Source: Alteromonas sp. V450
Lineage (GTDB): Bacteria; Pseudomonadota; Gammaproteobacteria; Enterobacterales; Alteromonadaceae
DNA: 64,000 nucleotides
NCBI RefSeq assembly: GCF_001885075.1
Contig: NZ_MODU01000004.1
Span: 3,472,001-3,536,000 of the forward strand
Direction: 5' to 3'
Shown here: piece by piece, positions 14,602 to 15,498 of the stretch
Numbering within the stretch: the first letter of the stretch is position 1
Layout of the letters: every line of letters begins with the position of its first letter
Notes under the pieces: model-generated
Told to the model about the DNA's origin: nothing
Database searches by the model: none
The model's input: the letters and a program-made list of their open reading frames with translations, nothing else
Translations under genes and position numbers: made by a program

Positions 14602-15498
14602 ATGATTAAAGCGTTAAGAACCCCCGATGACAGATTTAAAAATCTCGTTGATTACCCTTTTGAGCCCAACTATGTAGATGATCTTGAAGGGTATGAAGGC
14701 TTGCGTGGCCACTATATTGATGAAGGTAGCAAAGGCGCAGAGAATGTATTTCTTTGTCTTCATGGTGAGCCCGCTTGGAGTTATTTATACAGAAAAATGA
14801 TTCCAGAGTTTGTTAAAGCGGGTGGTCGTGTCGTTGCGCCCGATTTATTAGGTTTTGGTAAATCAGATAAACCTATCGGTGAAGATACTTACACCTTCGA
14901 GTTTCACCGCAATTATTTAATACAGCTTATTGAACGCCTAGACCTTAAAAACATTACATTGGTATGCCAAGACTGGGGTGGTTTACTTGGGCTTACATTG
15001 CCTATGGATATGCAGCGCCGGTTTAAACGTTTAATCATTATGAATACGGGACTGTTGGTGGAGCCTGTTATTGCGCCAGCGTTTATTGAATGGCATGACG
15101 ATATTGTAAAAGCTAATCCGCTGTCGCTGTCGCACTTCTTTAAGCAATATGCACCTACTATCAATGAAGACGAAGCTAACGCTTACGCTGCACCATTCCC
15201 TGACAGCAGTTACTTATCAGGGGTATTGAAGTTTCCCAAAATTGTCGCAAACCCCGATCAAGTGTGTATTGAAACTTCTACTAGAGCCTTCTCTTTTTGG
15301 AAGAATGATTGGGATGGGGAAACCTTCATGGCTATTGGTATGAAAGATAAAATGTTGGGGCCAGATGTTATGCATTTCATGCAGGGTGTTATTAGAGGGT
15401 GCCCAGAGCCAATGGAAGTGCCAGAGGCCGGACATTTCGTTCAAGAGTTCGGAGATACAGTTGCATCTGCCGCACTAAAACAGTTTGGTCTTATTTAA
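14602..15498 (+). CDS. haloalkane dehalogenase, DhlA-like (subfamily I)
   Basis: Haloalkane dehalogenases hydrolyse carbon-halogen bonds of haloalkanes to alcohol and halide. The 298-residue alpha/beta hydrolase starts at ATG 14602 behind GAGG (a GTG one codon earlier is also in frame). It matches remembered Xanthobacter DhlA over nearly its whole length: [46 protein letters not shown]. Catalytic residues are nucleophile D124, acid D249 and base H278, with halide-binding W125 next to the nucleophile and probably W164. Relative to DhlA about 11 residues are missing in the cap, just where DhlA has a short tandem duplication, which places W164 in register with DhlA W175. It is first in a two-gene operon under a divergent TetR. 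The substrate cannot be read from sequence. Confidence 0.92.

Follow-up and report, generated by a model that had tools for sequence, protein, structure and literature searches.

The dehalogenase gene and its neighbors between thiC and hemY

The window (the whole 64,000-nucleotide stretch of Alteromonas sp. V450 DNA that was analysed) holds a haloalkane dehalogenase gene within a group of three genes, with a divergent TetR-family regulator gene on one side, a flavodoxin-fold oxidoreductase gene on the other, and two palindromes in the interval before the dehalogenase. The features, in window positions, are as follows.

13813..16221, no strand: inserted cassette; sequence matching thiC-hemY regions of the same genus stops at about 13812 and restarts at about 16222, and GC is lower in between
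13862..14464, minus strand: divergent gene for a TetR-family regulator; over 171 aa its product shares 55% identity with the TetR beside dhlA on pDCA
14511..14539, plus strand: sigma-70-like promoter TTGATA-N17-TAATGT toward the dehalogenase; 8/12 consensus letters, weak by itself and of note for its placement in five loci
14516..14544, minus strand: sigma-70-like promoter TTGAAA-N17-TAAAAT toward the TetR gene; 10/12 consensus letters, with palindrome O1 in its spacer
14520..14535, no strand: predicted operator O1, palindrome TAGGTCGGATGACCTA, inside the promoter spacer
14549..14564, no strand: predicted operator O2, palindrome TAGGTCGCATGACCTA
14602..15498, plus strand: subfamily I haloalkane dehalogenase with a short cap, sister of DhlA; 298 aa from ATG
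15061..15093, plus strand: cap stretch, codons 154-164, where alignments give DhlA 11 more residues; ends at W164, the counterpart of DhlA W175
15508..16110, plus strand: flavodoxin-fold NAD(P)H oxidoreductase gene (PF02525), 9 bp after the dehalogenase stop

The dehalogenase frame, which in the ORF listing begins at a GTG one codon before the ATG, encodes a protein scoring 308.5 bits with the NCBIfam haloalkane dehalogenase model NF002043 (cut-off 265). Its best matches among PDB sequences (phmmer) are the DhlA chains 1edb (E 6.2e-137) and 1b6g (8.5e-137), followed by 7avr (7.9e-111) and then 2xt0 (7e-104), and identity to dhlA of pDCA is 64.8% by tblastn or 66.2% over aligned columns. Residues D124, W125, W164, D249 and H278 align with D124, W125, W175, D260 and H289 of DhlA; the HLD-I features of a nucleophile Asp with adjacent Trp, an acid Asp and a base His are all present, and W164 corresponds by alignment to the second halide-binding Trp, DhlA W175. 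The profile score, the phmmer matches and these residues bear out the original prediction of a DhlA-like subfamily I enzyme, including its assignment of D124, W125, D249 and H278, each of which aligns with a catalytic residue of DhlA. The nearly gap-free alignment that it described is likewise evident, as phmmer aligns residues 1-295 with DhlA 1-306 through a single gap of 11 residues, in the cap. In both the phmmer and the MAFFT gap placements W164 stays in register with W175, as had been claimed, and from the alignment it would be expected to face the halide. The five columns (DhlA numbering D124, W125, W175, D260, H289) are invariant in 75/75 clade members; in a larger set of 136 rows the first three are kept throughout, and D260 and H289 in 135, the odd row having a gap. 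By the chemistry of the family, D124 would attack the halogen-bearing carbon and, following the DhlA mechanism, W125 and W164 would bind the departing halide, and H278, together with D249, would activate the water that releases the alcohol. A second dehalogenase-like gene, 38% identical, lies elsewhere in the same genome (C4:784039-784911), with similar genes in many congeners.

The divergent gene product matches PF00440 (TetR_N) with 32.6 bits against a cut-off of 24, and an inner ATG at codon 11 may by eye be its true start. The flavodoxin-fold protein scores 154.1 bits with the KefF equivalog model, under the cut-off of 210, and is thus KefF-like, short of identity as KefF. On the outer sides, thiC (NF006763, 1067.6 bits, cut-off 650) and hemY (TIGR00540, 239.9 bits, cut-off 142, and under the cut-off of the stricter NF008017) flank the group, on a contig that extends to at least 3.5 Mb. 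A hemY match was found in 35 of the 36 genomes of the genus, own genome included, and thiC lies within the 1.5-kb flank of hemY at 10 of the 19 other loci returned. Similarity to these loci breaks off at about 13812 and picks up again at about 16222, two points separated by 53 bp in a same-genus locus (L206), so that the TetR, dehalogenase and oxidoreductase genes form an insertion of 2.4 kb between thiC and hemY. Most of the cassette has a GC of 0.40-0.43, vs 0.45-0.50 on both sides. In the remaining 35 genomes of the genus no match exceeds 38% identity, and the better ones correspond to the second gene at C4:784039-784911. Searches for repeats of at least 12 bases within either cassette end region returned none, and the longest exact match shared by the two end regions was 8 bases direct and 7 inverted; among phage records there were two weak matches. 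A TPP riboswitch upstream of thiC (13640-13751, minus strand; 75.7 bits vs a gathering score of 54.3) adjoins the insertion point.

The cap domain and the direction of change

Relatives were drawn from genome contigs (80 loci), from plasmids and from further genome sets, the sets searched being 60 relatives, 368 genomes of the class, 398 of the phylum and 196 of the family, together with 249 from the order of G723, 289 from the class of G703, 10 of one genus and 387 from the order of G665; some genomes were sampled in more than one set. Membership of the clade was set at 260 bits or more, and relatives below this, the best of them at 237 bits, were excluded as another group. The alignment was built in two steps, 75 distinct clade members and then 60 more with a Persicobacter gene, giving 136 rows; L107 (a duplicate of L106) and L138, L140 and L141 (the same genes as L185, L166 and L170) were left out, as was L227 (the same gene as L142) from the 136-row set. 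The counts given for TetR, flavodoxin and palindromes cover the 75 loci, with the 60 later-added genes outside, and the Persicobacter locus was checked separately for TetR and flavodoxin. A short-capped, pre-insert dhlA was also sought in the order of G665 and this candidate was rejected: 3/387 genomes match at E 1e-70, the best being 57% identical to DhlA. That order was taken as the DhlA host order solely from the grouping of L142 with L001, a Rhizobiaceae-group sequence.

Between the anchors IIMN and AYAAPFP, 131 of the 136 sequences have 49 or 50 residues. DhlA has 60 and is the sole bearer of the repeat in the set, and the remaining four rows, all from genus g526, have 63 or 64. The short cap is the norm, and to speak of lacking the duplication describes an oddity of DhlA. 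The idea that the absence of the insert sets the window gene apart finds no support, with 131 relatives short-capped, and the solved structures 7avr and 2xt0 likewise show no net 11-residue difference from the window protein.

Within DhlA, the insert amounts to 11 residues with a perfect 15-bp direct repeat, and is absent from the window gene. At the DNA level GTCACCCAGCCTGCG is present twice, 27 bp apart, and the dhlA cap also carries the pair TTTAGCGCC/TTTACCGCC. Because the DhlA segment is repeated, the position of the gap varies between alignments: phmmer places it after DhlA F161 and MAFFT after DhlA V156, so that F161 of the window protein is paired with DhlA F161 in one alignment and with F172 in the other. 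Both placements fall inside the repeat, which agrees with the location originally proposed. A 25-residue stretch of DhlA corresponds to 14 residues here, and removal on paper of DhlA residues 164-174 yields a segment of the same length and pattern as the window cap; a laboratory mutant with precisely such a deletion has reportedly been described. Third codon positions of dhlA and the window gene are 31.5% identical, and the chance that a perfect 15-bp repeat has survived from their split is about 3e-4, as a crude product of position-wise identities that ignores codon bias and selection. Given this contrast between a perfect repeat and strongly diverged third positions, the DhlA repeat is probably younger than the split between the two genes.

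Phylogenetic trees recovered the window gene and DhlA as sisters in all three calculations: an 81-row tree (support 100/97, bootstrap/SH-aLRT), a 33-row tree including Persicobacter (99/96), and the 136-row tree with the cap columns removed (SH-aLRT 97). In the 33-row tree three further genes (L080, L108 and L156) and the Persicobacter gene join the pair as one set (100/100), the placement of Persicobacter inside this set being weak (83/45). By these trees the window gene is the nearest relative of DhlA among those found here; the terminal branches of both are about 0.4 changes per site, and closer relatives of either may therefore be unsampled. The minimum number of cap-expansion changes on the 136-row tree is two, the four g526 sequences grouping together and away from DhlA. 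With a short-capped sister, and with short caps as the norm, the insert is to be placed on DhlA's own branch, as judged from the trees. The original suggestion that the gene resembles the enzyme before the duplication thus holds insofar as the short cap is ancestral (131/136 short) and the insert derived; as a description of the immediate precursor it fails, with about 34% of residues differing and third codon positions identical at 31.5%.

The g526 sequences (L226, L275, L277 and L284) carry a cap insert of 14-15 residues without visible resemblance to that of DhlA, at about the same position. With an independent insert so near, this site of the cap seems prone to length change.

Predicted regulation and proposed origin of the cassette

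A TetR match was detected in 5/75 clade loci, always divergent, and these five are exactly the DhlA subclade; the other 70 gave none at E 1e-4, 73 of the 75 loci holding at least 1.4 kb of upstream sequence. For the three nearest other relatives the flanking sequence gave no flavodoxin match, and the flavodoxin gene may accordingly be a separate addition.

All five TetR-linked loci have TTGAYR-N17-TA-like hexamers before the dehalogenase, a pattern composed after inspection of the five regions, with one GGTC-N4-GACC palindrome lying within the 17-bp spacer and another following 20-29 bp later. A single such palindrome occurs within 260 bp in 1/70 other loci, and two palindromes arose in 0/20,000 mononucleotide shuffles of the five regions. 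The exact 16-mer TAGGTC-N4-GACCTA has two occurrences in the 4.39-Mb genome, both before the window dehalogenase. With one mismatch allowed, the genome has five places vs eight for a reversed control, and 8/100 shuffles of the window reach two matches. A general promoter scan returned five promoter-like sites vs 5.0 in shuffles, no better than chance, and the dehalogenase promoter falls below its threshold. What carries weight is that five diverged loci share one arrangement.

From the palindrome pair and the promoter-like spacer in all five loci, a repressible dehalogenase is predicted. In the straightforward reading the TetR protein would bind the two palindromes, one of which lies between the -35 and -10 hexamers, and would keep the dehalogenase promoter repressed until a ligand, putatively a haloalkane or its product, releases the repressor. 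In strain GJ10 dhlA is constitutively expressed, so that repression would be lost or weak there.

These observations can be combined into a single scenario, which we hold with good confidence as a whole: an enzyme of the DhlA clade, predicted to be active and retaining the ancestral short cap, encoded in an acquired, TetR-repressed cassette of which a damaged form is present on pDCA of the 1,2-dichloroethane degraders. The TetR, dehalogenase and flavodoxin-fold genes would have been acquired horizontally as a three-gene unit, and DhlA would have gained its 11 residues through a short tandem duplication after separation from the line of the window gene. As to physiology, a natural bromo- or iodoalkane as the substrate, and a role of the flavin enzyme in dealing with electrophiles or quinones, are guesses.

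Three competing readings have to be weighed against this scenario. The TetR gene could regulate only itself or a distant gene, the palindromes not being its operators; their operator role is indeed a prediction, and with one mismatch allowed the sites are no rarer than in the controls. However, the pairs co-occur with the TetR gene in 5/5 loci, at the same place before the dehalogenase, and exact sites exist nowhere else in the window's genome, so that we regard this reading as unlikely. We would give slightly less credence still to a hydrolase of the DhlA fold that acts mainly on something else, such as an ester or an epoxide, and on haloalkanes only as a side activity: in favor of this reading, the two neighbors, as assigned by family libraries, are a regulator and a quinone-reductase-like protein, neither of them a haloalcohol or haloacid enzyme, but the clade keeps both halide-binding Trp residues and the Asp-His-Asp triad almost without variation, and the solved relatives DhlA, DpaA (7avr) and DppA (2xt0) are all named haloalkane dehalogenases.

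Far less probable than either is a secondary deletion, by which the window gene would have lost 11 cap residues from a long-capped, DhlA-like ancestor. Short direct repeats promote deletions too, and Pries in 1994 is said to have described laboratory mutants with deletions in the DhlA cap stretch, which counts for this reading; yet the short-capped majority takes in the rest of the DhlA subclade as well as Persicobacter, so that several parallel losses would be needed, and the perfect repeat is probably younger than the split, as argued above.

A more far-reaching scenario is possible, and we put it forward tentatively, as somewhat short of an even chance: the plasmid dhlA system could descend from a cassette whose intact chromosomal form is the one in the window, with a haloalkane-responsive TetR repressor acting through two operators, a dehalogenase with the short cap, and a flavin oxidoreductase. 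On plasmids at polluted sites an insertion element would then have cost the cassette its third gene, and the cap repeat would have been added to the dehalogenase, tuning it to 1,2-dichloroethane.

DhlA is a standard example of an enzyme whose proposed adaptation to a man-made chemical is recent. The value of the present gene lies in its being the nearest relative of DhlA among those found here, and in a cassette linking the plasmid gene to a chromosomal form. The short-capped sister and 130 other short-capped relatives settle which way the cap changed, with the repeat gained on the DhlA branch, and the sharing of regulator, palindromes and third gene suggests a single ancestral cassette. The conserved arrangement supplies a concrete promoter for testing, and two close natural enzymes whose caps differ in length by 11 residues allow the hypothesis on the cap repeat to be tested.

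Comparison with known dehalogenase systems

HLD-I enzymes without the insert were already known, DpaA and DppA being named in PMC10619424. A 2024 paper (PMC11658234) describes dhlA as identical across isolates of different origin, on different plasmids with insertion sequences, and calls its mobilization and distribution unclear. Our literature search, with key subscription papers beyond reach, found, among the papers listed, no report of the insert being peculiar to DhlA and, by title, none on TetR operators at dhlA.

Of the named enzymes, DpaA from Paraglaciecola agarilytica (7avr) is a haloalkane dehalogenase of the same group and by residue alignment is without the 11-residue insert. It is more distant from the window gene than DhlA (373 vs 459 bits), lies outside the trees, and has a cap motif that by eye resembles family f1 (L150-L155), which branches away from the window gene. 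DppA from Plesiocystis pacifica (2xt0), also more distant and outside the trees, has no net cap insert as read from the alignment ranges. On a Deinococcus aetherius plasmid (L109:4989-5918) we observed a short-capped gene of the DhlA clade, 52.5% identical, between an MFS transporter gene and genes for oxidoreductases.

The genes of Roseovarius albus (L080), of a Roseovarius sp. THAF8 plasmid (L108) and of genome G1130 (L156) are 60-63% identical to the window gene and share with it the short cap, the divergent TetR gene and the two palindromes; unlike the window, they have no flavodoxin match alongside. The plasmid of Persicobacter sp. JZB09 (L110) has a short-capped dehalogenase and a downstream flavodoxin gene 66% identical to that of the window, but no TetR match, and its dehalogenase gene is interrupted. 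The split in that gene (L110:2154-5561) falls at about codon 122, just ahead of the nucleophile motif, and is caused by an IS21-family element (transposase and IstB), the N-terminal piece being 76% identical to the window protein and the remainder 56%; a group II intron was considered and rejected, L110 having no Rfam match.

DhlA itself, from Xanthobacter and Ancylobacter plasmids (1b6g, 1edb; pDCA NZ_KU922121, NZ_KU922118), is 65-66% identical with all five catalytic residues in common and differs in being plasmid-borne and in the 11 extra cap residues with their 15-bp repeat. Like the window, pDCA has a divergent TetR gene, paired palindromes before dhlA and, in pieces, a flavodoxin gene downstream, whereas a palindrome-bearing promoter toward the TetR gene was not found on it. 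In the pDCA of Xanthobacter flavus EL8 (L106), the flavodoxin frame begins 11 bp past the dhlA stop, and the piece behind dhlA is 74% identical over 93 aa to the protein in the window. In codon 12 the frame is split by a 1572-bp element (L106 6980-8551) with 16-bp inverted ends, the 10-bp target repeat ACCCCAACCT on both sides, and a gene annotated as an ISAs1-family transposase. Past the element the frame follows the window protein as far as residue 102, and a stop two codons later truncates it.
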